From: a virus
DNA length: 20,421 bases
Virus record (IMG/VR): IMGVR_UViG_3300025314_000477
Span: 1 to 20,421 of that record
Strand: one strand, 5' to 3'
Position 1 is the stretch's first letter, and the number at the start of each line of letters is the position of its first letter. The notes beneath the pieces are model-generated. The model was not told where the DNA came from and searched no databases. It saw only the letters and a program-made list of their open reading frames with translations. This document shows, piece after piece, positions 339-16,451 of the stretch. A program made the translations under genes and the position numbers.

Positions 339-824
339 ATGGACGAAAAATATTTAGCTGGAATTTTTGATGGCGAGGGTAGCACTGGTATTTATTGTCA
401 AGGTGAATCTTTTCACTTTTGCTTAACCATATCACAAAGTGGGTTCACCGAACCAAAGATACTTACGGACATTCATAATCAATACGGTGGTCACATCTCA
501 AAAAACACGAACACAGTCCGTAGTAAAATAAAATCAAGGAAGCCAAGTTGGGTTCTGTCATTGAGTAGGGGTGATGAGGCTATAAAAATATTGAATGATA
601 TTTACCCACACTTGAAGATTAAGAATCGTGAGGCTAAGTTGGTTATAGATTTTATAGAGTTGTGTAAGGAACAGAGGAAAGAGAAACCAATCAATAAGGC
701 GTATCCGAATAGATTACGCAGAAGTCAGATAGAACATAGAGCACATTTATATATTGAGTTTCTAAAGGTGAGAGAATCACAATTCGGTGGTGTTCTCAGC
801 AATAGAGATGCTGAGTATGAATAA
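339..824 (+). CDS. LAGLIDADG homing endonuclease, single-motif type
   Basis: This is a free-standing homing endonuclease of 161 residues. The signature lies at residues 6-14 (Leu-Ala-Gly-Ile-Phe-Asp-Gly-Glu-Gly), with Glu13 at the metal-binding acidic position. Only one motif is present and the length suits a single-motif enzyme, which by family knowledge acts as a homodimer on a pseudo-palindromic site. The rest is basic and of alternating strand/helix character, as expected for the DNA-binding saddle. The start is fixed by an AGGAGAGG site a few bases upstream. I see no intron or intein splice signals around it, so it probably spreads by cutting alleles that lack it and copying itself into the gap between two phage genes. 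The target site is unknown. Confidence 0.9.
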   Translation: MDEKYLAGIFDGEGSTGIYCQGESFHFCLTISQSGFTEPKILTDIHNQYGGHISKNTNTVRSKIKSRKPSWVLSLSRGDEAIKILNDIYPHLKIKNREAKLVIDFIELCKEQRKEKPINKAYPNRLRRSQIEHRAHLYIEFLKVRESQFGGVLSNRDAEYE

Positions 825-826
825 AC

Positions 827-1090
827 ATGAACAACAAGGAAAAAATCATTAAGTCTTTTGGAAAGGTGCGGGACGACCTTGATGACGTTATCTCCAACCT
901 GCAACAACTGGACAGTGGTGATAAGAAAACTGATAGGTTAGCAACGAATCGGATTACATTTGCGATGTTTTCGGTTGTTGACAGACTTATTGATACGGAA
1001 GCAAAACTATATAATTACTTAAAGAGGAGACAAGACAATGGATTGTGTATTAAAAAAGAGTCTAAAAGAGGAACACGAGAACATAAATAA
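827..1090 (+). CDS. hypothetical small helical protein
   Basis: A charged 87-residue protein that starts two bases after the endonuclease stop codon. I do not recognise it. The first 30 residues and residues 50-70 look like amphipathic helices (for example a Lys-Val-Arg-Asp-Asp-Leu-Asp-Asp-Val stretch). There are no Cys pairs, signal peptide or membrane segment. The Shine-Dalgarno is weak, so translation may be coupled to the gene upstream. Its last 53 bases overlap the next gene in another frame, an unusually long overlap for this window; the extreme C-terminus is very basic (Lys-Arg-Gly-Thr-Arg-Glu-His-Lys). It is probably real, but either it or its start may be misjudged. Confidence 0.6.
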   Translation: MNNKEKIIKSFGKVRDDLDDVISNLQQLDSGDKKTDRLATNRITFAMFSVVDRLIDTEAKLYNYLKRRQDNGLCIKKESKRGTREHK

Positions 1091-1337
1091 CCCACTATAT
1101 GCACCTGGTGGTATAGCCGCAGACATGACTCATATTTGTCCCTTAATGGGAAAGCAAATATGTTATTGGTGCTGTCAGCATATTTACCACGTTTCTCAAC
1201 CTATGACTAGAGTTGTAAGTAGTGACAACAACCCTGGGTATGCTGAGAAGATTGCTAAGTTGACTGATAGAGAAGACCTAGATGATGTTTGGTCTACTTG
1301 TAGTCAATGTGGCAGAGGTGGTAGTAAAGGGGCTTGA
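1038..1337 (+). CDS. hypothetical Cys/His-rich putative zinc-binding protein
   Basis: A 99-residue protein with two clusters of possible metal ligands. The first is Cys34, Cys42, Cys45, Cys46, His48 and His51; the second is the Cys88-x-x-Cys91 pair close to the C-terminus. The arrangement suggests a treble-clef or zinc-ribbon type fold, but I do not recognise the family. The start is supported by GAGGAG about 10 bases upstream. Its TGA stop (1335-1337) lies inside the -35 box of the promoter at 1334-1362, so that promoter serves only the genes downstream. The 53-base overlap with the preceding gene is odd and makes one of the two boundaries uncertain. Confidence 0.65.
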   Translation: MDCVLKKSLKEEHENINNPLYAPGGIAADMTHICPLMGKQICYWCCQHIYHVSQPMTRVVSSDNNPGYAEKIAKLTDREDLDDVWSTCSQCGRGGSKGA

Positions 1338-1362
1338 CATTCTGGCAAAAGTATGCTATAAT
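1334..1362 (+). promoter_or_regulatory. perfect-consensus sigma70-type promoter with extended -10
   Basis: TTGACA at 1334-1339, a 17-base spacer, and TATAAT at 1357-1362, preceded by TG one base upstream (TGCTATAAT), so both hexamers, the spacer and the extended -10 match the bacterial housekeeping consensus. Expected transcription start is about 1368-1370. It would drive the ClpP, nucleotide-metabolism and packaging genes using unmodified host RNA polymerase. Confidence 0.88.
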
Positions 1363-1364
1363 AT

Positions 1365-1577
1365 ATGAAAGAGTTAAAAAGACTTGAAATAGAGACTAGA
1401 AAACTTCGGGACGTGTTGGCAAAACTACATAATCCTGGGTTCTCTTTTCCTGAACAAGAACTGATTAGGAGAGTCTTCAAGTCCATACTTCCTCAACTGA
1501 GGAATGATACCGATAAGGGTATCGCTAATGATATTTTAGAGAAAACCGAATGGTTGGAGAAGACAAATGGAGCATGA
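1365..1577 (+). CDS. hypothetical 70-aa helical protein upstream of clpP
   Basis: A 70-residue, highly charged protein with probable amphipathic helices at residues 1-22 and 28-47; the family is not recognised. Its ATG lies only two bases after the -10 box of the strong promoter, and about four bases before the expected transcription start. No Shine-Dalgarno precedes it and there is no upstream in-frame start (a TAA lies two codons before). It could therefore be made only from read-through transcripts, as a leaderless message if transcription starts unusually early, or from an internal start such as GTG at 1413. It overlaps the ClpP start by 11 bases, which favours a real, coupled gene. The same DNA can form two neighbouring hairpins (1489-1504, 1506-1523). 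Confidence 0.5.
   Translation: MKELKRLEIETRKLRDVLAKLHNPGFSFPEQELIRRVFKSILPQLRNDTDKGIANDILEKTEWLEKTNGA
1489..1523 (+). promoter_or_regulatory. two adjacent small hairpins in the leader of the clpP transcript
   Basis: TTCCTCA (1489-1495) pairs with TGAGGAA (1498-1504), forming six pairs with a four-base loop in RNA. One base further on, GATACC (1506-1511) pairs with GGTATC (1518-1523) around a six-base loop. Both lie about 45-80 bases before the ClpP start and about 120-155 bases after the predicted transcription start. No U-tract follows, so this is not an intrinsic terminator. Function is unknown and chance pairing within a coding region is possible. Confidence 0.3.
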
Positions 1578-2184
1578 TTTGGACGATGAAATCGTAATCA
1601 CAAACGAATACGAAAGAAGAGAACTCAGAAAGCAGAGAACAATTATCTTGTCAGGAGAGATTGATACTGGAACTGCCCACGAGTTCATCGAAGATATGAT
1701 GATTCTAGTCAAAGCAGGTAAAGAACCTATGACGGTGGTTATTACATCACCTGGTGGGTCTGCTTTTGCTGGTTTTGCTATCATCCGTGCTATTAGATAT
1801 GCACAACGTCATGGAGTCAAAGTAATTGGTTCTGTGTACGGTCAGGCAATGTCTATGGCATTTTTTATTTTACAGTGCTGTGACGAAAGGGTCATGGGTA
1901 ACTTGTGTGTTCTCATGGCACACGGTGTTACTACTGGTTTCGTTGGTGACATGAGAAACGTAGACGCAGAAAAGAAACTACTTACTTTGTGGCAACACGA
2001 AATAGCTAAGTTGGTTTCTGAACGTTGTACTGCGAAGGACTCAAAGTATTGTACCGCCGAACATTGGGTAGAGTTACTAAGAGATAACACTCCGCAGTTC
2101 TATTCTGCAAATGAAAGTTTAGAGATGGGATTGGTTGATAAAATCTGTGATGATGACGGTAAAGACGAAGAAGTTAAACCCTAA
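1567..2184 (+). CDS. ClpP-like ATP-dependent protease subunit
   Basis: A 205-residue serine protease of the ClpP/S14 family, close to the usual length. The order of motifs is right: oxyanion-region Ser-Pro-Gly-Gly-Ser near residue 61, nucleophile Ser96 in Gly-Gln-Ala-Met-Ser-Met, His119 in Leu-Met-Ala-His-Gly, and Asp173 before the Ser-Ala-Asn-Glu-Ser-Leu-Glu-Met-Gly-Leu-Val-Asp segment, which matches the conserved C-terminal ClpP element. So the catalytic triad looks complete. There is no signal peptide. GGAGAAG precedes the start; the ATG overlaps the end of the previous gene. Some phages use a ClpP-type fold as their capsid protease, but here it sits with nucleotide genes and a different prohead protease begins at 19982, so a role in protein turnover, perhaps with a host Clp ATPase, is more likely (inference). 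Confidence 0.88.
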   Translation: MEHDLDDEIVITNEYERRELRKQRTIILSGEIDTGTAHEFIEDMMILVKAGKEPMTVVITSPGGSAFAGFAIIRAIRYAQRHGVKVIGSVYGQAMSMAFFILQCCDERVMGNLCVLMAHGVTTGFVGDMRNVDAEKKLLTLWQHEIAKLVSERCTAKDSKYCTAEHWVELLRDNTPQFYSANESLEMGLVDKICDDDGKDEEVKP

Positions 2185-2575
2185 CGCAATACTACCTAAG
2201 TTAGTTGATGATTTCGCCGCATGTGCTGATTTGTACTGCTGTGAAGACTGTGTGGTAGAGTTAGGTAAACTAACAAAGGTAAGGACAGGTCTGGTGTTTG
2301 AGATACCAGAAGGTCATATGGTAGAAGTAAGACCACGAAGTGGAATTTCCAGTCGTGGTGTGATTATACCAAACGCACCTGGAACAATTGACTCAAACTA
2401 TAGAGGAGAAGTAATCGTTCTAATGTACGGTCTGTTCGGTAGCGAAACTTTCAAAGCTGGAAGTAGAGTTGCTCAAGCAAGACTCGTGAAATTGGAGGGA
2501 TACACATTCAAAGAAGTAGACGAGGTTACAGAAACAATTCGTGGTTCAGGTGGTTTTGGGTCTACAGGAAAATAA
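2153..2575 (+). CDS. dut: dUTP diphosphatase (trimeric dUTPase)
   Basis: Hydrolyses dUTP to dUMP and pyrophosphate, keeping uracil out of phage DNA and feeding dTMP synthesis. All five motifs of the trimeric family are seen: Ala-Asp-Leu-Tyr (motif 1), Pro-Arg-Ser-Gly-Ile-Ser-Ser-Arg (2), Pro-Gly-Thr-Ile-Asp-Ser-Asn-Tyr-Arg-Gly-Glu (3), Gly-Ser-Arg-Val-Ala-Gln (4), and the C-terminal lid Arg-Gly-Ser-Gly-Gly-Phe-Gly-Ser-Thr-Gly (5). Length, about 140 residues, is normal. The start is chosen from family alignment (Met-Thr-Val-Lys-Thr); ATG at 2150 and TTG at 2135 are in-frame alternatives, and none has a strong Shine-Dalgarno. The gene overlaps the end of clpP by 32 bases, so translation is probably coupled to it. 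Confidence 0.95.
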   Translation: MTVKTKKLNPNAILPKLVDDFAACADLYCCEDCVVELGKLTKVRTGLVFEIPEGHMVEVRPRSGISSRGVIIPNAPGTIDSNYRGEVIVLMYGLFGSETFKAGSRVAQARLVKLEGYTFKEVDEVTETIRGSGGFGSTGK

Positions 2576-2584
2576 AGGAGAGGT

Positions 2585-3055
2585 ATGGACAAAGAGTATT
2601 CGGTTTATTTGGCAGGTCGAATTGCCAATTTAAGCTATGAGGAAGCAATGGCATCTCGTAATGAGATGATTCAGAAGCTTAACGCAGTCGGCATTAGGTG
2701 TCGGACTCCTATGCGGGGTAAACAGCATTTAGAGAATGCAAAGAAAATTGATAGTGATACATTTAAGAATGGACTAACTATCAATGAGGTCATTCAAAGA
2801 GACATCAGTGATGTCGAAAAAGTAGATGCTGTGGTAATTCTAACTGGTGATGATGCCAGTTGGGGAACTGCTGGTGAATTCTATTATGCAACGTGGGTTT
2901 CCAAGACTCCCACACTCGTAATTGCTAAGAACTACGTTGGTGGTTGGCTAGAGAGATTTGCAACTAGAATTGAACCAGATTTCGACAGTGCAGTCAAGGT
3001 TTTGGTGCATTGGAAGAAATACTGGAACGGTGAGGGAGTATACGATACGAGGTAA
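2585..3055 (+). CDS. nucleoside 2-deoxyribosyltransferase-like protein
   Basis: A 156-residue protein resembling the nucleoside 2-deoxyribosyltransferase superfamily, which moves or hydrolyses the deoxyribose bond of (deoxy)nucleosides or nucleotides. The N-terminal strand-loop Tyr-Leu-Ala-Gly-Arg-Ile (residues 8-13) matches the substrate-binding loop. Ser-Asp-Val-Glu-Lys-Val-Asp-Ala-Val-Val-Ile-Leu and then Gly-Thr-Ala-Gly-Glu98 match the second half, with Glu98 at the position of the catalytic nucleophile. An AGGAGAGG site fixes the start. It lies between dUTPase and ribonucleotide reductase, so nucleotide salvage or removal of unwanted nucleotides during infection is a fair inference. The exact substrate cannot be told, and a related DUF4406-type protein of unknown function is an alternative. 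Confidence 0.7.
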   Translation: MDKEYSVYLAGRIANLSYEEAMASRNEMIQKLNAVGIRCRTPMRGKQHLENAKKIDSDTFKNGLTINEVIQRDISDVEKVDAVVILTGDDASWGTAGEFYYATWVSKTPTLVIAKNYVGGWLERFATRIEPDFDSAVKVLVHWKKYWNGEGVYDTR

Positions 3056-3061
3056 TAAAAG

Positions 3062-3211
3062 ATGGTAGCAAAGAGTATTGCACAATGGGCAAAAGACTTA
3101 GTTAATGAAGATAACGTAAAATTATGTATTCTTCTTACACCAGATGCAAGTAATCCAACAGCTATTGCTGATGCAGTAAGTGGTTGGATTGTCTACAGTG
3201 GTTCTTTATAG
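3062..3211 (+). CDS. hypothetical 49-aa protein
   Basis: A short open frame fills the gap between the deoxyribosyltransferase-like gene and ribonucleotide reductase. It has a GAGG ribosome site nine bases before its ATG (3049-3052), starts seven bases after the previous stop, and ends 17 bases before the next gene. This gene-like spacing, more than any homology, supports it. The product is soluble-looking, with a basic/acidic N-terminal helix (Lys-Ser-Ile-Ala-Gln-Trp-Ala-Lys-Asp-Leu) followed by a mostly small and hydrophobic second half. I do not recognise it. Confidence 0.55.
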   Translation: MVAKSIAQWAKDLVNEDNVKLCILLTPDASNPTAIADAVSGWIVYSGSL

Positions 3212-3228
3212 GAGTAATTGGATAAACA

Positions 3229-5271
3229 ATGAGGGTAATTAAGCGTGACGGCAGAATAGTCAAGTATAATCAGGAAAAAATAGCCATAGCCGTAGGGAAA
3301 GCAATGAAGTCCCTTGGCAGACTTGATGATAAAATAGCACACCAAGTTGCTGACACAGTAACCGAAACATTGGGAAGTTCTAAAGAGGTTTCTGTCGAGG
3401 ATATTCAGGATAAAGTAGAAGATGCTTTAATCAAGTTGGGTGACGCCCAATTAGCTAAAGCGTATATACTCTATCGTGCAGAGAGAGCTAAAGTAAGAGG
3501 TTTCAAAGAAGCAATCGGTATTGAAGACGACCTCAAACTTGGGGTTAATGCTCTTTCGTTACTTGATAAGAGATATTTGAAGAAGGTAGATGGTAAGAAA
3601 GAGACACCATCACAGATGTTCCGCAGAGTAGCAAAGCATGTTGCCTCTGTAGAGAAGCAATATGGCAATGACCCTGTATATTGGTCTAAGGCTTTCTATA
3701 ACCTAATGGCAAACCAAATCTTTCTTCCAAACACACCGTGCTTGGCAAACGCTGGTAGAGAGGAATTGAACTATCTTTTTGCTTGTTACGCATTTGAAGT
3801 TGGTGACTCTATTGAAGACATTTTCCAGACCGTTAAAGATTGTGCTATAGTACAGAAGACAGGTGGTGGAGTTGGTCTTAATCTATCTAAGTTACGTCCT
3901 ATGGGTGACCTTGTTAAGTCAACTGAAGGTGTGGCTAGTGGACCGATTGACTTTATGCGTGTCTTTGATATGACAAGTGATGTTATCAAACAGGGTGGTA
4001 TCAGACGTGGTGGCAACATGGGTTTACTGCTAATTAACCATCCCGATATTGTTAACTTCATTAAGTGTAAGAACGATGAAAACAAACTAAACAATTTTAA
4101 TATATCTGTTGCTATTACTGATGACTTTATGAGAGCGGTAAAGAATGATACCGAGTTTCAATTGGTAAGTCCAAAATCTAACAAAGTCACAGGAAAAGTT
4201 AAAGCCAGAGAGTTGTTCCGTCTGATTGCAGAATCAGCTTGGAAGAACGGTGAACCTGGCTTTGTTTTTTGGGATAAGATTGAGGTTGACAACCCAACAC
4301 CAAAAGCTGGTCACTTGATTAAGAACTTGTGTGGTGAACAAGACCTACTTCCTTACGAAGCCTGTTGTCTTGGTTCAATCAATTTGGTCAAGTTTGTTGA
4401 GGATGGTCAGATTGTTTACACATCACTAAGAAAGGTTGTTCACCATGCGGTGCGTTTCCTTGATGACGTGATTGATGCTTCTGATTATCCATTAGATGTT
4501 ATCAAGAAGACAGTTAAGTCTAATAGAAAGATTGGACTTGGTGTGATGGGGTTCTCTAATTTATTACTCAGACTTGGTGTACCCTATGACTCAGACGAAG
4601 CGTTGAAGATTGCTGAAGATGTGATGGACTTTATCAATGTTGAATCACGAAAAGCTTCGGCAAAACTTGCTGAGGAGAAGGGTGATTTTCCAGCCATAAA
4701 GGTATCCATTGTTGATGCACCACAACGTAACGCTACGTTAACTACTATTGCTCCTACTGGTAGCATTAGTATCATTGCAGAGACATCAAGTGGCATAGAA
4801 CCAATATTTGCGGTGGTGTATAATAAGACTAATATTTTGGAAAACAACACATTCTTTGAGGTAAACCCAATATTTGAGGAAATTGGCAAACTAGAGGGGT
4901 GGTATTCACCTACTTTGATAAATAGGGTGATTAGGAATGGTGGTAAGGTCACAGGTATTACCGAAGTACCAGAGAAGTGGCAAAAAGTTTTCAGAACTGC
5001 GTTGGAAATATCACCTGAATGGCATGTAAAAATGCAGACAGCTTTCCAGCGTCATGTCAATAATTCAATATCCAAAACGATAAATCTTCCTTACGAATGC
5101 ACTGTCGAAGATGTCGAGAAGGTCATAAAGCTTGCTTATGATATGAACCTTAAAGGTCTTACAGTGTTCCGTAATAATAGTAGGACAACACAGGTCTTAG
5201 AAACACTCTGTCCTGAGTGTGAAGACGGTACTTGTCCTATTACCCCGCCTAGTCAGACCAGTTCTGATTAG
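3229..5271 (+). CDS. nrdJ: class II (adenosylcobalamin-dependent) ribonucleotide reductase
   Basis: Reduces ribonucleotides to deoxyribonucleotides for phage replication. A single 680-residue chain carries an ATP-cone at residues 1-90, starting Arg-Val-Ile-Lys-Arg-Asp-Gly, followed by the ten-stranded barrel. Catalytic residues fit the class: Asn366, Cys368 and Glu370 in Asn-Leu-Cys-Gly-Glu-Gln, and the redox pair Cys171 (Asn-Thr-Pro-Cys) and Cys379 (Glu-Ala-Cys-Cys-Leu-Gly-Ser). Ala-Pro-Thr-Gly-Ser-Ile-Ser is the phosphate-binding loop. The C-terminus has a Cys-x-x-Cys pair plus a third Cys (Cys-Pro-Glu-Cys-Glu-Asp-Gly-Thr-Cys), as expected for the swinging tail that re-reduces the active site. 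No NrdB radical subunit or NrdG activase follows, as expected for class II. Such an enzyme needs cobalamin from the host. Next to dUTPase it forms a dNTP-supply block. Confidence 0.93.
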   Translation: MRVIKRDGRIVKYNQEKIAIAVGKAMKSLGRLDDKIAHQVADTVTETLGSSKEVSVEDIQDKVEDALIKLGDAQLAKAYILYRAERAKVRGFKEAIGIEDDLKLGVNALSLLDKRYLKKVDGKKETPSQMFRRVAKHVASVEKQYGNDPVYWSKAFYNLMANQIFLPNTPCLANAGREELNYLFACYAFEVGDSIEDIFQTVKDCAIVQKTGGGVGLNLSKLRPMGDLVKSTEGVASGPIDFMRVFDMTSDVIKQGGIRRGGNMGLLLINHPDIVNFIKCKNDENKLNNFNISVAITDDFMRAVKNDTEFQLVSPKSNKVTGKVKARELFRLIAESAWKNGEPGFVFWDKIEVDNPTPKAGHLIKNLCGEQDLLPYEACCLGSINLVKFVEDGQIVYTSLRKVVHHAVRFLDDVIDASDYPLDVIKKTVKSNRKIGLGVMGFSNLLLRLGVPYDSDEALKIAEDVMDFINVESRKASAKLAEEKGDFPAIKVSIVDAPQRNATLTTIAPTGSISIIAETSSGIEPIFAVVYNKTNILENNTFFEVNPIFEEIGKLEGWYSPTLINRVIRNGGKVTGITEVPEKWQKVFRTALEISPEWHVKMQTAFQRHVNNSISKTINLPYECTVEDVEKVIKLAYDMNLKGLTVFRNNSRTTQVLETLCPECEDGTCPITPPSQTSSD

Positions 5272-5290
5272 CATATAGGGAGTTTTCCTT

Positions 5291-5629
5291 ATGGCAATCC
5301 ACAATCTCACTGGTAACGCAAGCAAAGAAATGGCAATATTGCCTCGTACTTCGGATATTAGGAGTAATATGACTGATTCGCAAAAACTGTGTGCCATATG
5401 CCAAAAGGAATACCGTCCCAGGTTTCCTCGTGAGTTCTTTTGTAATGATTGTTACCATAGATGGTACAAAGAGATAAGGGAACGTTTACCTTGGGTAAAG
5501 TTCTGCATATCGAGCGAATTACGAAGACGCAGACAAGACAGCAAAATGGGTGGTTGGATTTTTCTAGGTAATAAATGGGACGTTGATGACCACGATAGAT
5601 TAGTACCGAGGGACGGATATAATGGGTAG
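5291..5629 (+). CDS. hypothetical zinc-ribbon protein upstream of terminase
   Basis: A 112-residue basic protein with a zinc-ribbon signature: Cys34-x-x-Cys37 and Cys51-x-x-Cys54, separated by Arg/Lys- and aromatic-rich sequence. The C-terminal half is basic (Arg-Arg-Arg-Arg-Gln) and may bind nucleic acid. Two starts are plausible. ATG 5291 has AGGGAG eight bases upstream; ATG 5369 (Met27) has AGGAG about four bases upstream and would begin just before the zinc ribbon. Its last eight bases overlap the next gene. The position directly before two packaging genes suggests a role in packaging or HNH-like DNA processing, but no His-Asn-His core is visible, so no function is assigned. Confidence 0.7.
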   Translation: MAIHNLTGNASKEMAILPRTSDIRSNMTDSQKLCAICQKEYRPRFPREFFCNDCYHRWYKEIRERLPWVKFCISSELRRRRQDSKMGGWIFLGNKWDVDDHDRLVPRDGYNG

Positions 5630-6182
5630 AAAGAGAAAGGGTCAAGTTCTGCAAGAGAGAATTGACCGTTACATGCAAGAATATGAACTGGACGAGTTGA
5701 ATGAAGCCAATGATATGGCGGCACTCACTCAGATGTGTCAACTTGAGTTGAACATGGAGCAAATTCAGGAAGCTCTAGCCGATATGACTGATTTGTCAGA
5801 GAACTCAAAGAAGGTTAAAGACTTGATGAGTTCTTTACGTGATGCTACCCAGTCATGGACTAATCTTCAGGAGCAACTTGGTATTGCTAGGAAGAAGAGA
5901 CAGACCGAGAGTGATGAGACTCCTCTACAGTATATCGAGAAATTAAAGGAACAATCAAAGAAGTTCCTTGATAAGAGACTGAAGACATTGAAGTGTGACA
6001 AGTGTGGTCAGCCGTTGGGTAAGTTTATGTTCTATGTGAACGAAAAAGGTGAAAAAGGTTCTATAGAAAGCGAAAAGAAACCAATTGAAGAATACAAATA
6101 TACCATTCGTCACGAATGCTGGAAATGCTCTGGTCATATTGCTGAGGTTTCCAACGAAGATATTGTGTTAACACAGAAATGA
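5622..6182 (+). CDS. putative terminase small subunit with C-terminal zinc ribbon
   Basis: A 186-residue protein immediately before the large terminase, overlapping it by four bases (ATGA), the classic place for the small subunit that recognises phage DNA for packaging. Residues 1-20 are basic; residues 25-120 are predicted helical with coiled-coil character (long runs of Leu/Glu/Gln/Lys), suitable for an oligomerisation core. Residues 125-169 form a zinc ribbon, Cys125-x-x-Cys128 and Cys166-x-x-Cys169. I see no clear helix-turn-helix, which is the usual DNA-binding part of a small terminase. The assignment is therefore by position and architecture only; a packaging accessory protein is the alternative. 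Confidence 0.5.
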   Translation: MGRKRKGQVLQERIDRYMQEYELDELNEANDMAALTQMCQLELNMEQIQEALADMTDLSENSKKVKDLMSSLRDATQSWTNLQEQLGIARKKRQTESDETPLQYIEKLKEQSKKFLDKRLKTLKCDKCGQPLGKFMFYVNEKGEKGSIESEKKPIEEYKYTIRHECWKCSGHIAEVSNEDIVLTQK

Positions 6183-7792
6183 AAGAGAAAATAACCTTAT
6201 CAGAGGGCGATTTAGCCCTATTAGAGATTTTGGATGACCCAGTTTTGTTTGGGGAGTTCATAAAAACTGATGATGAAGACATTGAGTCTGGTGGTTATGG
6301 ATGGAAATGGGATAACTACCAAAAGAAGATGTTGACTGACACATCATCTTTCATTAGTGTTGCCACAGGACGTAGCACTGGTAAAACAGAGAGTATGGAA
6401 TCAAAGATTATCCATACTGCTATCTCAAATAAGTATAGAAAGTCCAGTGCCAACGAAATCTTGCTGGTTGTTCAGAACAAGGCACAACTAGAACCTGTGT
6501 TTAATAAGATATGTAATACAATTAGAAGACACGCACTACTAAAGTGGTACACTGATAGGTTCAGTATCAACATGTCAAGTCACGAACTAAGACTATTGAA
6601 CGGATGTTTGGTTAGGTGCAGAATTGTTGGTTCTACTGCTGATAGTAACATTATCGGTTTGCACGTACCATGTGTATTCGTTGATGAAGGTCAGGTGTTC
6701 GGATACAATGCTTGGAACTCACTACAACAGTGTTTGACACAGTGGGATACTGGATTCCAGTTGTGGGTTAGCGGTGTACCTAATGGTCTTCGTGAGAAGA
6801 ACGTTTTGTACGAGTGTGACCAAGTAGAGGCTAAGTTCTCACGTCACAATTTATCAAGATTGGGAAGTAGCAGATATACTAAAGACCAACACGCAAATGA
6901 CCTTAAACAGTATGGTGGTGAGACAGGAGATGATTATATTCACTTGGTGCTAGGCGAACATGGTTCACCCGCATTCTCTGTCTTTGACAGAAAGTTAATG
7001 AAGATAGAAAGCTATCCAGTAACTTATTGTCTCCTTAACAACATCACACTAGACCAGCATAATGGTGAGTTCAACGAGTTATTGAAAGCTCCTGATTTAC
7101 CATTGGAAATTCAAATGAAGTGCGACCTAATCGTTGCTGGTATAGACGCTGGTTTCTCCAACGACCCCACAATTATTACTATATTGTGGCGAGACAAAGC
7201 GACAGGTGTTTGGCGTGAGTTTTTGAGATATGAACTGCGTAGAATCAAATATCCTACTCAGGCTAAAATTATAGACTGGTTGGACACGATATACAGGTTC
7301 AACATGCTTTGTATTGATGCTGGTTCTTCAGGTCTTGCTTTGTGTCAGATATTACAAGATAACGATGGTGATTTCAAGAGTAAGGGTTATCTAAAGAGAC
7401 TCATTCCTGTTGACTTCCAAGCTAATGTGGTTACAGGTTATGAAGAAGATAAGAATGACCCAAAGAAAAAGGTTGAAGTAAAGGATAGGGTGAGGAAGTT
7501 TACTATCCAAACTTTACAGAAGTGGTCACAGAATGACCAGATTATTGCTTTCTCAGACCAGGATGATGATGTCATATCTGAACTTGAGAGAGTTGGTTTT
7601 ACTAGGGATATGCTAGGACAACCGAAATTTTTTGTATATTCCCCTCAAGGTGGTCAAAAGGGAGAAGACCACATATTGGCTTCGTTGCTTACTTGGGTGT
7701 ATGGTTATTACAATAACTATTTTTCACCGCAGAGACCTACTACAAAGGGCAAATATAGCGACCTTGCTGGTGCTAAGTGGAATACGAGGTAA
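6179..7792 (+). CDS. terL: terminase large subunit (packaging ATPase and nuclease)
   Basis: The DNA-packaging motor, 537 residues, normal length. The N-terminal ATPase has a terminase-style Walker A (Gly64-Arg-Ser-Thr-Gly-Lys69-Thr) and Walker B Cys-Val-Phe-Val-Asp169-Glu170. The C-terminal RNase H-like nuclease shows the three acidic residues expected: Asp323 in Ala-Gly-Ile-Asp-Ala-Gly, Asp380 in Cys-Ile-Asp-Ala-Gly-Ser-Ser-Gly, and Asp497 in Gly-Glu-Asp-His. It drives DNA into the prohead through the portal encoded next, and cuts the concatemer. It starts inside the preceding gene's stop region without a clear Shine-Dalgarno, so translation is probably coupled. The motifs do not let me say whether it makes cos, pac or direct-terminal-repeat ends. 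Confidence 0.95.
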   Translation: MKEKITLSEGDLALLEILDDPVLFGEFIKTDDEDIESGGYGWKWDNYQKKMLTDTSSFISVATGRSTGKTESMESKIIHTAISNKYRKSSANEILLVVQNKAQLEPVFNKICNTIRRHALLKWYTDRFSINMSSHELRLLNGCLVRCRIVGSTADSNIIGLHVPCVFVDEGQVFGYNAWNSLQQCLTQWDTGFQLWVSGVPNGLREKNVLYECDQVEAKFSRHNLSRLGSSRYTKDQHANDLKQYGGETGDDYIHLVLGEHGSPAFSVFDRKLMKIESYPVTYCLLNNITLDQHNGEFNELLKAPDLPLEIQMKCDLIVAGIDAGFSNDPTIITILWRDKATGVWREFLRYELRRIKYPTQAKIIDWLDTIYRFNMLCIDAGSSGLALCQILQDNDGDFKSKGYLKRLIPVDFQANVVTGYEEDKNDPKKKVEVKDRVRKFTIQTLQKWSQNDQIIAFSDQDDDVISELERVGFTRDMLGQPKFFVYSPQGGQKGEDHILASLLTWVYGYYNNYFSPQRPTTKGKYSDLAGAKWNTR

Positions 7793-7797
7793 CATAG

Positions 7798-9300
7798 ATG
7801 GATAAGAAAACAACAAAAGTTGCGACTGGTAACAAGCAACCAATAAAATTGGCAAAGGCTACTGTTAATCCAGTTGTTATGGACGATAAGAGCGTCTTGT
7901 TCACAGGATATGTATTAGATGAAATGCAGATTCCAGCCGACTATCAAAAGTTGGTGAAGATGTGCAGATTCTTCTACATGCATGACCCTATTGCGGGTAC
8001 TGTTATGAACAAGATAGTTGATTGTGCTATAACACCTTTGACTAACAGAAAGGCAAATTGTTCCGATGAAGAGTATGCTGTATACAACTCTATCCTAGAC
8101 TTGCTACAGGAATTCTTCAGAAACGTATGCCTTGAATACCTATTATCAGGATTGGTTGTACCTCAGTATGAGTGGGCTAGAACAAGAGGTAGTGACCTAT
8201 CTCCTACTCTTGATTCCAGACGTAGAGTTTATGTTCCAGACAATATCTGGTTCAGAGACCCCGCTTCTCTTACTGTAAAACTATCACCTTTGATGAAGAG
8301 ATATATCTATGTTACTATTGATGTCAACACAATCCAGTTTATCAGAACTGGTAAGTTACCCGATGGCACTAAAGATGAGGAAATGCTAAAGGAGTTTGAA
8401 GAGAACTATCCTGAATTTGTCAAAGCAGTCAAGTCTTTGAAGGGAACGAAGATGCAGATAAAACTAGAGAACACAAGACCTATCTTCTCTAGAACATTAC
8501 CTGAGAATCCATATCCTATTCCTTACATGGAGAATGCTCTTGAGTCTTTACTTCACAAGAGAAACTTGAGAAAGATGGACTACTCAATCGCATCCAGAGT
8601 GATTGCGGCTATCCAGTTGATTAAACTTGGTAGTGACGATTTCCCATGTACTGATGAATCAGATTTTGACCAGATTAAGGAACAAATCAATTACCGCACG
8701 TCAACAGGTTATGCGGAGAGAATATATCAATTGTTTGCTAACCACACATTGACTATTCAGTGGGTATTCCCTGATACACAGGCAATGTTGAATAGAGAGA
8801 AATATTCTTCAGTGGAAGATGACATCATTGCTGGTCTTGGCTTCCCACGTACACTTATTACTGGTGAAACATTACGTTCTAGTACGGCTGGTGGTAGCGA
8901 CTTTGCGGCTTTCTCTCCTATTGCAACAATGGAAACGATAAGAGACAAGTTGCTTGAGTGGACTAAGGTTCTATATAAGGAAATGCAGGACAAGAACGGT
9001 TTCCAGAATCGTCCTATTCCAGCATGGTCTCCAATGAAGTTGTACAAACTTCTTGACCTTAACAACATTGGTGCTTCTATCTACAAGGAAGGCTCACTAT
9101 CCAGAAAGACTAGACTTGAGATGCAAGGTCTCGACTTCGACACTGAGGTTGAAAGAAAGACTGAGGAAGCTAAAGTGTACAAGAAGAATAAACTTCCTGA
9201 TGCACCTGCTCTACCATTCTCTTCTCCACAAATTGGTAATCGTCCAAGAGGTGGTGGAACACCTACTGAAGAACCAACGGTGGCTGAGGAAGAAAATTAA
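7798..9300 (+). CDS. portal protein
   Basis: A 500-residue portal (dodecameric ring at one capsid vertex, docking site for terminase and later the tail). Support: position directly after the large terminase; usual length; the central Pro-Ile-Pro-Tyr-Met-Glu-Asn-Ala-Leu-Glu segment followed by a long basic helix (Leu-Leu-His-Lys-Arg-Asn-Leu-Arg-Lys-Met-Asp), typical of phage portals; the Gly-Phe-Pro-Arg-Thr-Leu-Ile-Thr-Gly-Glu segment near residue 350, which resembles the portal stem/wing junction; and an acidic, Pro-rich disordered C-terminal tail. GAGG lies eight bases before the ATG. The next gene downstream is a sugar-nucleotide enzyme rather than a protease or capsid gene, which is unusual. 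Confidence 0.88.
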   Translation: MDKKTTKVATGNKQPIKLAKATVNPVVMDDKSVLFTGYVLDEMQIPADYQKLVKMCRFFYMHDPIAGTVMNKIVDCAITPLTNRKANCSDEEYAVYNSILDLLQEFFRNVCLEYLLSGLVVPQYEWARTRGSDLSPTLDSRRRVYVPDNIWFRDPASLTVKLSPLMKRYIYVTIDVNTIQFIRTGKLPDGTKDEEMLKEFEENYPEFVKAVKSLKGTKMQIKLENTRPIFSRTLPENPYPIPYMENALESLLHKRNLRKMDYSIASRVIAAIQLIKLGSDDFPCTDESDFDQIKEQINYRTSTGYAERIYQLFANHTLTIQWVFPDTQAMLNREKYSSVEDDIIAGLGFPRTLITGETLRSSTAGGSDFAAFSPIATMETIRDKLLEWTKVLYKEMQDKNGFQNRPIPAWSPMKLYKLLDLNNIGASIYKEGSLSRKTRLEMQGLDFDTEVERKTEEAKVYKKNKLPDAPALPFSSPQIGNRPRGGGTPTEEPTVAEEEN

Positions 9301-9309
9301 GGAGATTAT

Positions 9310-10254
9310 ATGAAGGTATTGGTTACAGGCGGGAGAGGGTTTCTTGGCACGTATGTCATAAACGAACTAATAGATAGTGGCTTTCCACGAGGTGACATAT
9401 ATGCTCCTTCATCGCTAGAGGCTAATCTTCTACAAGAAGAACAATGCCGTAGAGTTATGAAGGGTGCAGATGTGTGTATTCATCTAGCGGCACGTGTGGG
9501 CGGAATTGGTCTTAATAATGCTAAACCAGCAGACCTGTTCTACGAGAATATGCAGATGGGTCTTAACGTAGTACACGTATCACAACAGATGAAAATAGGT
9601 AAGTTGTTGGTTGTTGGAACTATCTGTGCATATCCTAAACTGACACCTGTACCGTTCAAAGAAGAAGACTTGTGGTGTGGTTATCCAGAAGAAACCAATG
9701 CTCCATATGGCATAGCAAAGAAGTCCCTTCTCGTCTACCTTCAATCTTGCAGAAAGGAATATGGTCTAAATGGTATATTCCTGTTACCTGTAAACCTTTA
9801 CGGTCCAGGTGATGATTTCAGTCCAGAAAGTTCTCATGTGATACCAGCACTGGTAAAGAAGTTCTACGATGCAAAGACCGAAAACTCAAAAGAGGTGATA
9901 GTTTGGGGTACTGGTAAAGCAACCAGAGAGTTCTTGTACGTGAGAGACTGTGCTGAGGCAATAGTTAAGGCACTGAAGACATACAATAAACCAGACCCAA
10001 TTAACGTTGGTGCTGGCTTCGAGATTTCTATTAAGGACTTGGTTGAAAAGATAGTCAAGTTATCAAACTACAGTGGTGAGATTGTTTGGGACAACACTAA
10101 ACCAGATGGTCAACCTAGAAGAATGCTTGACACCACCAAGGCGGAAAAGGAATTCGGTTTTAAGGCATCAACCTCATTTGACTATGGGTTGATGAGTACA
10201 ATTAAATGGTATGAGGATAAAGGTAAGGATGTTTATTCAAGAAGAACTGTATAG
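9310..10254 (+). CDS. fcl: GDP-L-fucose synthase-like NAD(P)-dependent epimerase/reductase
   Basis: A short-chain dehydrogenase of the extended type, 314 residues, closest in pattern to GDP-L-fucose synthase (WcaG/Fcl), which turns GDP-4-keto-6-deoxy-D-mannose into GDP-L-fucose. Seen: Rossmann Gly-Gly-Arg-Gly-Phe-Leu-Gly at residues 7-13; Ala-Ala-Arg-Val-Gly-Gly-Ile; Thr104 in place of the catalytic Ser; Cys106 at the epimerase acid/base position (Gly-Thr-Ile-Cys-Ala-Tyr-Pro); Tyr133 and Lys137 (Pro-Tyr-Gly-Ile-Ala-Lys); and His176 in Ser-Ser-His-Val-Ile-Pro-Ala-Leu. Cys106 and His176 correspond to the residues needed for 3,5-epimerisation, so an epimerase/reductase is favoured over a plain dehydratase. 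AAGGAG precedes the ATG. It starts nine bases after the portal gene with no promoter between them, so the two are probably transcribed together. Confidence 0.85.
   Translation: MKVLVTGGRGFLGTYVINELIDSGFPRGDIYAPSSLEANLLQEEQCRRVMKGADVCIHLAARVGGIGLNNAKPADLFYENMQMGLNVVHVSQQMKIGKLLVVGTICAYPKLTPVPFKEEDLWCGYPEETNAPYGIAKKSLLVYLQSCRKEYGLNGIFLLPVNLYGPGDDFSPESSHVIPALVKKFYDAKTENSKEVIVWGTGKATREFLYVRDCAEAIVKALKTYNKPDPINVGAGFEISIKDLVEKIVKLSNYSGEIVWDNTKPDGQPRRMLDTTKAEKEFGFKASTSFDYGLMSTIKWYEDKGKDVYSRRTV
10219..10231 (+). promoter_or_regulatory. ribosome binding site deciding the Nudix start
   Basis: AAAGG at 10219-10223 lies five bases before ATG 10229. The alternative in-frame ATG at 10211 has no such site, and the 10229 start gives the Met-Phe-Ile-Gln-Glu-Glu N-terminus typical of GDP-mannose mannosyl hydrolases. 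Confidence 0.6.
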
Positions 10255-10672
10255 TAAATTTGTAGAGTTAATGCCAATTGCATGTGTTGACATTCTCGTT
10301 CACCAAGGTGACAAGATTTTGTTCATCAAGCGTAACCAAGAACCAGCAAAAGGACAGTGGTGGGTTATTGGTGGTAGATTAGATAAGAATGAGACAATGG
10401 AACAATGTGCTCTGCGAAAGTGTAAAGAAGAGATTGGTCTCGATGTGGTAATAGAAAAGAAGATTGGTGTCTATGACGAGTTTTTTGATACCAGTATTCA
10501 GGGTCCATCTACTCACACTGTTTGTGTAGCTTTCTTGGCTACTCCAATTGGTAACATAGATGATTTTGCTGTGGATTCTACCAGCGATAGTGGAATCGTG
10601 ACTAATGTGATTGATGAACGCTTAGACCCATATGTTAAGCGACTATTGGTTGATAGCGGGATGGTGAGGTAA
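10229..10672 (+). CDS. gmm: GDP-mannose mannosyl hydrolase-like Nudix protein
   Basis: A 147-residue Nudix hydrolase resembling Gmm (WcaH/NudD), which splits GDP-mannose or GDP-glucose at the sugar carbon into GDP and free sugar. The Nudix box spans residues 49-71 (Gly49, Glu55, Arg63, Glu67, Glu68, Gly70). At position 64 a Lys replaces the Glu of the canonical Arg-Glu-x-x-Glu-Glu; deviation at this point is a known mark of the GDP-mannose hydrolases and fits their different bond cleavage. The N-terminus and the Gln-Trp-Trp-Val-Ile-Gly-Gly segment also fit. It lies between fcl and gmd, as gmm neighbours fcl and gmd in colanic-acid clusters. It may trim the GDP-mannose pool or recycle GDP. The start overlaps fcl by 26 bases. 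Activity as another Nudix hydrolase is possible. Confidence 0.8.
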
Positions 10673-11736
10673 TGATGAAAGCTTTAATTACAGGTATAAC
10701 AGGGCAAGATGGCTCTTACCTGGCTGAATTTCTACTCTATAAGGGGTACGAGGTTCATGGAATTATAAGGAGAGCCAGTACATTTAATACGAGCAGACTA
10801 AACAATATCTATGTTGACCCACATGAAAAGGGTGCTCGTTTGTTCTTGCACTACGGTGATTTGACGGACTCTGAACAGGTTACTAACCTGATTTACAATT
10901 TGAAACCTGATGAAATATATCATCTCGGAGCACAGAGTCATGTGCGTGTAAGTTTTGATTGTCCAGAATTCACAAGTAACGTTACTGGACTTGGCACTAC
11001 TAGAATTCTAGAAGCAATCAGAAGAAGTAAGTACGAAGAGAAGTTTTACCAAGCATCCAGTAGTGAGATGTTCGGTGCTTCTACTCCACCTCAGAATGAA
11101 GATACTCCATTTCATCCTCGTAGTCCGTATGCGTGTGCTAAGGCTTATGCGTACTGGATGACAAAGAACTACAGAGATGGATATGGATTATTCGCTTGTA
11201 ATGGTATCTTATTCAATCACGAGAGTCCACGCAGAGGAGAGACATTCGTAACTAGAAAGATAACCAGAGCAATTGCTAACATACTTAATGGTAAACAGGA
11301 CAAATTGTATTTGGGTAATCTGGACGCATGTAGAGATTGGGGATTCGCTCCTGAGTATGTAGAGGGAATGTGGAAGATTCTACAACAAGACACACCAGAT
11401 GACTTTGTTCTAGGTACTGGTGAAACGCACAGTGTCAAAGAGTTTGTTCAGGAAGCATTCTCATATGCTGGTTTGAAGTGGACAGATTATGTTGATATAG
11501 ACCCAAGATACTTTAGACCTACAGAGGTTGAGAAGTTACAAGCAGACCCAAGCAAAGCAAATAAGGTATTTGGTTGGAAACCAAAGGTTACATTCAAAGA
11601 GTTGATTAGAGTTATGGTTGATTCTGACCTAGAACTGGCTGGAATAAATCCTATTGGTGAAGGAATCAAAGTAATTAACAATAAATTTGAATGGTGTACT
11701 TGGGGGCAAGGAAAGGAGATTCTCTGTGGAGATTAG
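10672..11736 (+). CDS. gmd: GDP-mannose 4,6-dehydratase
   Basis: Converts GDP-D-mannose into GDP-4-keto-6-deoxy-D-mannose, the branch point to fucose, perosamine, rhamnose and related sugars. The 354-residue sequence is close to standard: Thr-Gly-Ile-Thr-Gly-Gln-Asp-Gly-Ser cofactor loop near the N-terminus; Arg-Arg-Ala-Ser and Arg-Leu-Asn NADP-contact segments; catalytic Ser130 and Glu132 (Ala-Ser-Ser-Ser-Glu-Met-Phe-Gly) and Tyr153/Lys157 (Ser-Pro-Tyr-Ala-Cys-Ala-Lys); and the Asn-His-Glu-Ser-Pro-Arg-Arg-Gly-Glu signature. ATG 10672 overlaps the previous stop by one base; ATG 10675 is better placed behind GAGG and gives the family's usual Met-Lys-Ala-Leu-Ile-Thr-Gly start. Its substrate must come from host GDP-mannose, as no ManA/B/C gene is in the window. 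Confidence 0.96.
11713..11728 (+). promoter_or_regulatory. ribosome binding site deciding a GTG start
   Basis: AAGGAG at 11713-11718, seven bases before GTG 11726, inside the end of gmd. It marks the acetyltransferase start; the upstream in-frame ATG at 11687 has no ribosome site and would add 13 residues not expected for the family. Confidence 0.75.
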
Positions 11737-12166
11737 ACATTTTACTGATAAGGATATTGATGGTCTTATAAAGCTACAAGAAGATAACAAGGGAGAGTTC
11801 AAGTATTTTACTCCTCACCCAGTTGATAGGGTAACTTTGCTATCCATAATCAAGACAGCCAAATTAGACCTATATTACGTGGTGGTGTATGAAGGAAATG
11901 TTATTGGCTATGGCATATTACGTGGAATGGACGAGGGATACAAAGTACCTAGTTTGGGAATCGGTATTGATAAGAAGTTTTATGGTACTGGGGTTGGTTC
12001 TCTGCTTATGAACTTCTTGGAGACTACTGCTCGGATTCGTGGCTATAAGAAAATGAGACTGCGTGTCTACAACGAAAACAAGAGAGCGTTTCCGTTCTAT
12101 TTGAAACTTGGTTATAAGTATGAACCATACGATGAACACTCTGTTTTAGGTTTTAAGGAGTTATAA
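11726..12166 (+). CDS. GNAT-family N-acetyltransferase
   Basis: A 146-residue Gcn5-related acetyltransferase, which moves an acetyl group from acetyl-CoA to an amine. It opens with the usual Ile-Arg-His-Phe-Thr-Asp-Lys-Asp strand-helix. The acetyl-CoA pyrophosphate loop is Phe-Tyr86-Gly87-Thr-Gly89-Val-Gly91 after Leu-Gly-Ile-Gly-Ile-Asp. The end has the standard [16 protein letters not shown] element. GTG start by ribosome site; 11-base overlap with gmd and 1-base overlap with the next gene. In this setting a 4-amino sugar made by the aminotransferase at 14094 is a possible substrate, though known perosamine N-acetyltransferases are often of the left-handed beta-helix type. A protein substrate cannot be excluded. 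Confidence 0.85.
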
Positions 12167-12399
12167 TGGACATTAGTAAGAAGTCTATTGGTGTCTTGAT
12201 TGACGAGTTAATAACCACTGACATTAAGTGTTGGTTTGCCCAAGAGAAATTACTTGCTGGAAAAGATGACCACGAAGTGGCAGAAGCGGCAAAGGATGCA
12301 CAAGCACTCAATGCCAGGAGAAACCAACTAATACGAGTTATTGATGAGATACTAGGTCAAGGTGGTATTTCTTTACTGAGGAAGAGTTATGACAAATAG
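12166..12399 (+). CDS. small helical protein of unknown function in the glycan cassette
   Basis: A 77-residue, probably all-helical protein. AAGGAG lies five bases before the ATG, and both ends overlap neighbours (one base with the acetyltransferase, 11 with the next gene), so it is firmly part of the operon. The pattern Ile-Gly-Val-Leu-Ile-Asp-Glu-Leu-Ile-Thr-Thr-Asp-Ile-Lys-Cys-Trp, then Leu-Asn-Ala-Arg-Arg-Asn-Gln-Leu-Ile-Arg-Val-Ile-Asp, recalls small helical proteins (DUF4254-like) found beside glycosyltransferases, but this is a weak memory match. The function is unknown. A helper or chaperone of the adjacent glycosyltransferase is conceivable. Confidence 0.7.
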   Translation: MDISKKSIGVLIDELITTDIKCWFAQEKLLAGKDDHEVAEAAKDAQALNARRNQLIRVIDEILGQGGISLLRKSYDK

Positions 12400-12661
12400 A
12401 CGACTCTTCATGTACGCCACACAAACTAAGTTGGTAGAAGAGGAGTCATTCTTATTTTACAAGTTAGGTTTTGATGTATACACGGCGGCTTGGGCAACGA
12501 ATCAGACAACACATTTCTTGGGTTATCGTGAGTTTCACCCAAAGCACTTCTATCAAGGTTCATGCGATTTCTTGTCCGATTCTGATAAGAAGATACTATC
12601 CAAGATTGATGTTGAATGGGTAAACTACCAAGAACTCCTACGATATACTATCCAGATGTAA
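12389..12661 (+). CDS. N-terminal part of a probable glycosyltransferase, split by a frameshift
   Basis: A 90-residue frame that looks like the first third of a GT-B glycosyltransferase: a short N-terminal strand (Arg-Arg-Leu-Phe-Met-Tyr-Ala-Thr) with a helix and second strand (Gly-Phe-Asp-Val-Tyr-Thr-Ala-Ala). It has a good ribosome site (GAGG seven bases before the ATG), unlike the frame that follows. It ends at a TAA within the overlap with 12616-13410, whose frame lies one base back. Both pieces joined give about 340-350 residues, a normal glycosyltransferase length. No canonical slippery heptamer is seen in the 46-base overlap. A one-base deletion, real or from sequencing, is the simplest explanation; a stand-alone short protein is the alternative. 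Confidence 0.6.
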   Translation: MTNRRLFMYATQTKLVEEESFLFYKLGFDVYTAAWATNQTTHFLGYREFHPKHFYQGSCDFLSDSDKKILSKIDVEWVNYQELLRYTIQM

Positions 12662-13410
12662 GCAAGGTTCTACTGGAAAACTTCGATGCAATGTATGTGT
12701 CAGCACCAACACCTTGGTTGCTTTATGCAGAAGATTTCCTAAAAGCTGGCAAGATTGTGGTGTATCGTTCATTCGGGTATCCACCGTATACTTGGGGTAA
12801 GTTCGTTGATTTGGATGTTTTGTTTAAGTATGATAAATTCCATGTGGTTACTTGTGTTCCTATTGACCAGAAGCAATACCAGAGGTCTTATACTGCGGTA
12901 ACCATGCTTAATAGGGAACTAATAGAACCACTACCAACAGCACCAAGTAGATATACTTTTACAGTGTTCCCCGACATCTCACCCACCATAAAGAAGTCAG
13001 TCATGGCTCATATGAATGATATGCAAATACCCTGGACTTTACATGATTATTCTAAGGATGCCTGGAAATCTCATAGTGAGATAAATAAGTTGTTTGCGGA
13101 GTGTTTCTTATATTTGGACCTTAACAATAATGTGAGATATACAGCATTAGAAGCTATACTTCATGGAAAGGTTGCTGTTATCAAAGATAATTATATGTTG
13201 AGTTACATGAGAGACACAGGTCTAACCATAGAGGACAAGTTCTGGTATACAAATTACGAATCAGACCTTAGAGAGACAGTTCTAAAGTTGTACCTCGATG
13301 ACCGTTTTAGAAATAAGATTTTAGAGGCACAAAAAGTGTGGTTGAATGGCACATTAGATTCAGCCGTAAATGTTTGGTGTAAAGTGTTAGAGGTAAAGGA
13401 TGATAACTAG
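12616..13410 (+). CDS. C-terminal part of a probable glycosyltransferase (family GT4-like), same split gene
   Basis: A 264-residue frame that continues the preceding one at -1. The first residues are probably not a natural N-terminus: ATG 12616 has no Shine-Dalgarno, directly follows a TGA in its own frame, and nearly every other gene here has a clear site. The body shows GT-B features: a strand-rich middle (Phe-Asp-Ala-Met-Tyr-Val-Ser-Ala-Pro-Thr-Pro; Lys-Ile-Val-Val-Tyr-Arg-Ser-Phe-Gly-Tyr) and a C-terminal donor-binding segment, Tyr-Thr-Ala-Leu-Glu-Ala-Ile-Leu-His-Gly-Lys-Val-Ala-Val. This last element resembles the second Glu of the GT4 Glu-x7-Glu motif. The end overlaps the FkbM gene by 11 bases. 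The donor is probably a nucleotide sugar from the same cassette (inference). Confidence 0.65.
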   Translation: MGKLPRTPTIYYPDVSKVLLENFDAMYVSAPTPWLLYAEDFLKAGKIVVYRSFGYPPYTWGKFVDLDVLFKYDKFHVVTCVPIDQKQYQRSYTAVTMLNRELIEPLPTAPSRYTFTVFPDISPTIKKSVMAHMNDMQIPWTLHDYSKDAWKSHSEINKLFAECFLYLDLNNNVRYTALEAILHGKVAVIKDNYMLSYMRDTGLTIEDKFWYTNYESDLRETVLKLYLDDRFRNKILEAQKVWLNGTLDSAVNVWCKVLEVKDDN

Positions 13411-15188: not shown

Positions 15189-15190
15189 TA

Positions 15191-16450: not shown

Positions 16451-16451
16451 T

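Follow-up and report, generated by a model that had tools for sequence, protein, structure and literature searches.

Can a gene be expressed when a strong promoter lies on or against its start codon, and if RNA from that promoter leaves the start codon out, which genes does the promoter serve? This question is raised by the junction between two small genes, encoding 99 and 70 amino acids (g99 and g70), in a 20,421-base virus record that carries terminase and portal genes. We refer to the whole of this stretch as the window.

A consensus promoter between two genes

The promoter at the junction has all 12 consensus hexamer bases, a spacer of 17 and the TG of an extended -10 element (Table 1). 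The g99 stop codon, TGA (1335-1337), is contained in the -35 box, and the -10 box is followed by AT and then by the g70 ATG. Read from its bases, this is a strong host-type promoter (sigma-70, extended -10) of a tailed phage, wedged between the g99 stop and the g70 start. A first-pass annotation of the window had described the two hexamers and their spacing, the upstream stop codon within the -35 box, an ATG two bases past the -10 box, a 70-aa gene without a ribosome site and an expected RNA start inside that gene; re-reading by script and the analyses below bear out all of these points.

Table 1. Features of the g99-g70 junction and of the genes around it, in window coordinates
Feature	Position	Strand	Basis and remarks
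g99, 99-aa gene	1038-1337	+	Cys-rich, conserved upstream neighbour, with Shine-Dalgarno
-35 hexamer TTGACA	1334-1339	+	read directly and re-read by script
Spacer TTCTGGCAAAAGTATGC	1340-1356	+	17 nt, final three TGC
Extended -10 (TGN), TGC	1354-1356	+	sequence; TG in 75/84 perfect sites of relatives
-10 hexamer TATAAT	1357-1362	+	read directly and by script
Predicted +1	1369	+	7 bp after -10, inside g70 codon 2; initiator pattern of the promoter class and spacing rule in the cited passages of PMC5730371
g70, 70-aa gene	1365-1577	+	conserved family, no convincing library match; all-helical AlphaFold2 model, mean pLDDT 88
GGAG, likely clpP Shine-Dalgarno	1556-1559	+	inside 3' part of g70, on the promoter's predicted RNA
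clpP-like protease gene	1567-2184	+	PHROG head maturation protease / ATP-dependent protease; overlaps g70 end
Downstream genes predicted on the promoter's RNA: dUTPase, deoxyribosyltransferase-like, ribonucleotide reductase-like, terminase large subunit, portal	2135-9300	+	open reading frames

The site is the sole exact TTGACA-N16-18-TATAAT on either strand of the whole record. A 12-of-12 site on either strand also appeared in 14 of 400 first-order Markov windows; taken on its own, a single promoter site in 20 kb is possible by chance and only mildly improbable. The site is significant because its position is conserved in relatives, not because it is rare in 20 kb.

A promoter class of the phage group

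The exact TTGACA-N16-18-TATAAT pattern is present in 13 of 14 related records, compared with none of the 14 for a backwards-read control, and seven related contigs hold 77 perfect sites where Markov sequence predicts 1.2. The promoter class is real. To describe it we used 125 sites from the 13 contigs searched, comprising 84 perfect sites and 41 with one mismatch (11 of 12), the latter selected for having TG; the set excludes the sites of the window and of L107, L110 and L136. The class is marked by GGC ahead of the -35 box, a 17-nt spacer (113 of 125) and the TG element.

The class also shares an initiator. At sites away from g70, the sixth base past the -10 box (-1) is T in 60% of 75 perfect and 69% of 39 one-mismatch sites, and the seventh (+1) is A or G in 92% and 88%, respectively; at g70 sites T at -1 and A or G at +1 are each found in 11 of 11. 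This shared pattern places the predicted +1 seven bases after the -10 box. The window itself has A at -1 (sixth base after the box, offset 5), departing from the class-typical T. For bacterial polymerase, the cited passages of PMC5730371 give a modal start 7 bp past the -10 box and describe initiation displaced upstream from there by more than 1 bp as rare. The base directly past the -10 box is G, making the ATG, at 8 of 11 g70 sites versus 16 of 114 others (Fisher p 7e-5, uncorrected for kinship). An ATG at offset -2 is not enriched in non-g70 promoters (16 seen, 16.0 expected from shuffled columns).

Searches for other transcription systems covered five contigs. The T4-type late motif TATAAATA was not enriched there, and a phage-coded sigma factor (PF04542, sigma-70 region 2) gave no match in these contigs while 10 of 14 control genomes matched; PF00940, for single-subunit RNA polymerase, matched neither these contigs nor the controls and is uninformative. 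Near-consensus promoters for the host polymerase are known from large phages, T4 early promoters being an example. The class described here resembles such promoters in its strong sigma-70 type boxes and in its many copies per genome; unlike T4 early-type promoters, one of its members also precedes a head-gene cluster.

Several further arrangements were seen within the class. A conserved 106-110-aa gene in three genomes has its ATG 6-9 nt past a consensus-like -10 box, a leaderless-like spacing (L058:7855, L091:8137 and L071:13301, corresponding to G002 27855, G007 8137 and G004 133301), and similar single cases occur at L079:17110 (+8), L087:19687 (+6) and L087:8565 on the minus strand (+9). 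In five genomes one conserved 250-256-aa gene is preceded by a pair of promoters spaced 67-107 bp from each other (L060:19950 with L061:53; L094:67 and 174; L083:4988 and 4900, minus; L066:18901 and 18989; L085:5220 and 5153, minus). At L089:6167 (G005 106167) an unrelated 101-aa gene has its ATG inside the -10 box; the G006 homolog of this gene (73728, minus) aligns from residue 1 and starts with TTG, preceded by a GGAAGGGAG stretch resembling a ribosome site.

The junction promoter is conserved in relatives

Relatives were collected by viral-contig searches with clpP, terminase, the g70 alignment and the g99 alignment. Nineteen related contigs (rows) hold g70, of which L113 is a near-repeat of L112, leaving 18 distinct; the L107 contig starts just past g99, and seven of 19 terminase loci did not reach the junction and were left out (L008, L012, L013, L015, L018, L019 and L026).

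The promoter stands at the g70 start in 14 of the 18 distinct relatives, in addition to the window. In ten of these 14 the ATG overlaps the -10 box (L114, L112, L132, L115, L119, L108, L111, L109, L107 and L110), which reads TACAAT in L108; the -35 box of L111 is TTGACT. Elsewhere the ATG lies 1 nt past the -10 box (L117, with a second ATG at 4), 4 nt past it (L116 and L130) or, in L136, 14 nt past it with a spacer of 19 nt; the window, at 2 nt, falls within this range. Six distinct relatives (L114, L112, L115, L111, L109 and L110) combine the g99 stop in the -35 box with the g70 start in the -10 box. Counting the window, 14 promoters have a 17-nt spacer, and across these the first 14 spacer bases average just 48% identity. 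L119 carries about 870 inserted nt between g99 and the promoter with g70.

The start codon of g70 lies upstream of the predicted +1 in the window and in 13 of the 14 promoter-bearing relatives. The exception is L136, which, from its spacing, could express g70 from its own junction promoter.

Four of the 18 relatives (L133, L118, L131 and L135) are without such a promoter at the junction, and in these g70 overlaps the g99 stop or begins at most 10 nt after it. In a FastTree phylogeny of joined protein alignments, promoterless L133 and L118 are nested in a promoter-bearing clade, and L131 and L135 group with L136; the tree is midpoint-rooted with several weak nodes, leaving gains and losses of the promoter uncertain.

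g70 is selected as a protein from codon 4

Relatives of g70 share 42-63% amino-acid identity with the window copy. Among the seven of ten overlap relatives that align gap-free, pN/pS is 0.27 in codons 4-22, where every one of the 19 third positions varies, compared with 1.25 and 1.77 in the shifted frames, and codons 23-61 have a pN/pS of 0.24. Codons 2-3, which lie under the initiator pattern, have no third-position changes. The pattern of substitution thus indicates promoter constraint first, at codons 2-3, and then protein constraint from codon 4. The first-pass annotation had set conservation of the coding frame against conservation of the promoter; the frame is under selection, and 14 of 18 relatives keep the promoter.

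We scanned 14 promoter-bearing loci, leaving out L136, for internal starts: six (L003, L005, L009, L020, L022 and L110) have no in-frame ATG, GTG or TTG in codons 2-30. With selection acting from codon 4 and no other start available in these loci, ribosomes must enter the frame at the ATG, which the promoter's RNA would lack. We conclude that g70, judged by its codons, is a real protein gene translated from that ATG.

How ribosomes reach this ATG is less plain. The best anti-Shine-Dalgarno duplex at the g70 start is -0.4 kcal/mol, compared with -9.1 for g99, -6.4 for clpP and -5.9 to -9.2 at 19 of 22 other window starts tested; the weak exceptions are g87 and a nudix-like gene (-2.2 each) and terL (0.9). 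The g70 start region has no special openness, its values resembling those of other genes. Translational coupling to g99 was considered and rejected as a general route. The g99 stop and g70 start are 27 nt apart in the window, and the cited passages of PMC10666635 describe reinitiation and coupling as very short-range, about 20 nt almost abolishing coupling, so that reinitiation after g99 should be weak at this distance; the insertion of about 870 nt in L119 means that coupling cannot be general.

The protein itself is modelled by AlphaFold2 (19 sequences) with helices at 2-22, 28-44, 48-60 and 63-68 and a pTM of 0.65. A fold search of the PDB and a viral library gave no g70 match at E ≤ 0.001, and a search for solved relatives gave none up to E 1. 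Pfam matches were weak and scattered (best E 0.0023, DUF7708, in 5 of 19 members), as were those in PHROGs (best E 0.023, one member). Bacterial genomes yielded 31 stretches that fit the peptide pattern, none of them a relative. Named phages had no match to g70 or g99, window positions 800-2600 had no DNA match in the phage collection searched, and the terminase had one match there, at 22.5% identity. By these comparisons the group consists of uncultivated phages without a close relative in that collection.

The upstream neighbour g99 has invariant cysteines in 13 aligned sequences (C3, C34, C42, C45, C46, C88 and C91) and a motif, QICxWCC, like that of a zinc-binding protein; it has no PHROG match.

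The promoter faces the head-gene cluster

The predicted RNA begins about 200 nt ahead of clpP and includes the clpP ribosome site. The order of the genes that follow (Table 1) is conserved in relatives. PHROGs matched dUTPase, terminase and portal, and the deoxyribosyltransferase weakly (E 0.054); the ribonucleotide reductase-like gene was named from its sequence and is presumably what its name says. clpP is missing at the junction in L115, L136, L130 and L118 (4 of 19 rows), where a dUTPase or deoxyribosyltransferase-like gene comes next. Because the first three of these bear the promoter, the promoter is not tied to clpP.

The next same-strand near-perfect site lies about 45 kb downstream in G002 (34329 to 79950), G007 (14704 to 60067) and G006 (L136 coordinates converted), about 20 kb in G005 and about 22 kb in G003, and the G004 contig ends after 13 kb; this list holds near-perfect sites only, and weaker promoters may lie between.

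Some features of the region were noted in passing. In six of 14 rows (L002, L003, L006, L014, L107 and L110), conserved Thr-Glu-Trp codons near the g70 end contain CGGAGTGG and thereby supply the next gene with a GGAG ribosome site; the start of that gene and the g70 stop usually overlap. Insertions of about 1 kb interrupt some terminase or reductase frames at differing positions, in the manner of self-splicing or homing elements (L024:6296-7269, L025:7472-8502, L008:585-1636 and L014:7182-8242). Past the portal gene, window positions 9310-17333 hold genes that, judged from their translations, resemble sugar-nucleotide and glycosyl-transfer enzymes.

A proposed pair of RNAs across the junction

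We propose that the junction is served by two RNAs, one that skips g70 and feeds the downstream genes and one, begun upstream, from which g70 is made. Polymerase would start at about 1369, in g70 codon 2 in the window and codon 3 in the relatives with TATAATG, and the resulting short RNA, without the g70 start codon, would carry clpP, dUTPase, reductase, terminase and portal. A long RNA from promoters farther upstream would read through g99 and give the 70-aa protein from the ATG at 1365. Upstream promoters would then set the level of g70, and the junction promoter would raise the downstream genes without g70. The central step is simple: RNA that starts about 7 bp past the -10 box does not include the g70 start codon, so only transcripts initiated farther upstream could give the 70-aa protein. 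We regard this explanation as probable, and it agrees with one of the first-pass suggestions, that the gene is read from upstream RNA only, which selection from codon 4 and the lack of an alternative start in six of 14 loci support. The same annotation had the promoter switching g70 expression off, which goes too far: the protein cannot be made from the promoter's predicted RNA, but there is no sign that this RNA keeps upstream RNA from making it.

Candidate sources of the long RNA exist. In G002 and G007 a same-strand promoter is located 3.4 and 3.2 kb ahead of g70, respectively, and L118 and L131 have same-strand promoters ahead of their promoterless junctions; upstream of the promoterless L133 and L135 junctions, the available sequence holds no near-consensus promoter. 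Between the upstream promoter and g70, G002 has five forward terminator-like hairpins, which are all the hairpins there (shuffles, mean 1.4), and G007 has four forward among six in total (shuffles, mean 2.2, both strands). Such hairpins speak against easy read-through, or for read-through that is regulated. A 12-pair hairpin without a strong T run is common to L058:12907-12936 and L091:13445-13474, about 1.3-1.4 kb before g70, and two more listed hairpins correspond between these loci (L058:12135 with L091:12339; L058:13031 with L091:13569).

Alternative readings of the junction

The overlap might be pure packing, in which both RNAs exist and space is saved, but leaving out g70 regulates nothing. 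This reading shares the anatomy and mechanism of the two-RNA explanation and denies only its purpose. Six distinct relatives tuck the neighbours' stop and start into both hexamers, the distance of the ATG varies from -2 to +14, and four of 18 relatives manage without the promoter, all as packing would have it; the enrichment of the ATG-making G at g70 sites points the other way, though the need for any start codon explains that too. We lean slightly against packing and take it as a serious candidate.

Ribosomes might instead begin at an internal start codon on the promoter's RNA and make a truncated g70 protein, the gene then encoding two proteins. In the window, GTG and TTG fall in frame at codons 17-18, and several in-frame starts, among them an ATG at codon 11, are present in L002, so that these two loci may give such a product; a precedent exists in VirF21 of Shigella, made, according to the cited passages of PMC5101355, from a gene-internal promoter. 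The six of 14 loci without any in-frame start in codons 2-30, and the mostly differing positions elsewhere, make a shortened product very unlikely as a property of the group.

We tried and rejected the possibility that g70 encodes no protein, its frame being incidental, and that the stretch acts as a leader RNA regulating clpP. Window positions 1369-1600 fold better than shuffles (z -2.7, equalled by one of 200 shuffles; a repeat run gave z -2.52), and the fold partly covers the clpP ribosome site (GGAG at 1556 unpaired with probability 0.34). This fold stands out in the window only: z-scores in 13 relatives run from -0.75 to 1.18, none like the window. The window has no Rfam match at gathering score, coding selection on g70 is strong, and three relatives with the promoter have no clpP there. 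This reading is highly improbable, and a special role of g70 as a clpP leader, which the first-pass annotation had suggested, is not supported.

That annotation's other option, a leaderless mRNA in which polymerase starts at the ATG and g70 is translated from its own promoter, would suit a start codon near the -10 box without a Shine-Dalgarno and has parallels in the genes of the group that start 6-9 nt past such a box, but it is ruled out by a start codon upstream of the predicted +1, and we give it next to no credence: the A of the window ATG is 3 bp past the -10 box, 4 bp short of the usual start, the energetics described in the cited passages of PMC5730371 make initiation displaced upstream from that place by more than 1 bp rare, and ten of the 14 relatives with the promoter have the ATG built into the -10 box itself.

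Comparison with known systems

The closest parallel that we found is the pI promoter of phage lambda. The lambda record shows the xis ATG running into TGTACT, 17 nt after a hexamer that lies between two TTGC repeats; we take the repeats to be the CII repeats and the two hexamers to be the pI boxes. As g70 overlaps clpP, xis overlaps the start of int. Like the g70 promoter, pI lies inside a small gene, the 72-aa xis, and allows int transcription that does not depend on xis, whereas pL yields both, as set out in the cited passages of PMC2951348 and PMC5300877. The systems differ in their control and in the genes they serve. pI is activated by CII in the account cited from PMC5300877, whereas the boxes of the g70 promoter are perfect consensus, which from their sequence makes a need for an activator unlikely. 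Integrase lies downstream in lambda; here head and nucleotide-metabolism genes follow, with no integrase directly downstream. The likeness of arrangement implies no relationship between lambda Xis and g70, which is predicted to be all-helical. By analogy, then, the g70 arrangement would work like lambda pI and is not a member of a xis/int module.

Shigella virF offers a second parallel, a gene-internal promoter whose RNA is without the first start codon; as described in the cited passages of PMC5101355, that RNA yields a second, leaderless product (VirF21), whereas g70 has no conserved internal start in codons 2-30. Our literature search returned no direct report of a -10 box overlapping a start codon.

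Implications for this phage group

The logic of a promoter that skips a gene is already known from lambda pI. What the junction adds is an argument made from sequence only: selection maintains a small phage gene that the conserved promoter lying over it cannot, by its predicted start, express. The consensus promoter is now usable for annotating such genomes, and the point at which RNA entering the head-gene cluster probably begins is now marked in this uncultivated phage group.

More speculatively, the group may split expression by RNA through the overlap of promoter and start codon, without a regulator, with g70 itself a phase-limited regulator; we consider this unlikely. If true, g70 would be made only while upstream transcription arrives and omitted once the head-cluster promoter takes over; it might regulate, for example, the protease or the junction promoter, and the G005 gene at 106167 would be another case.
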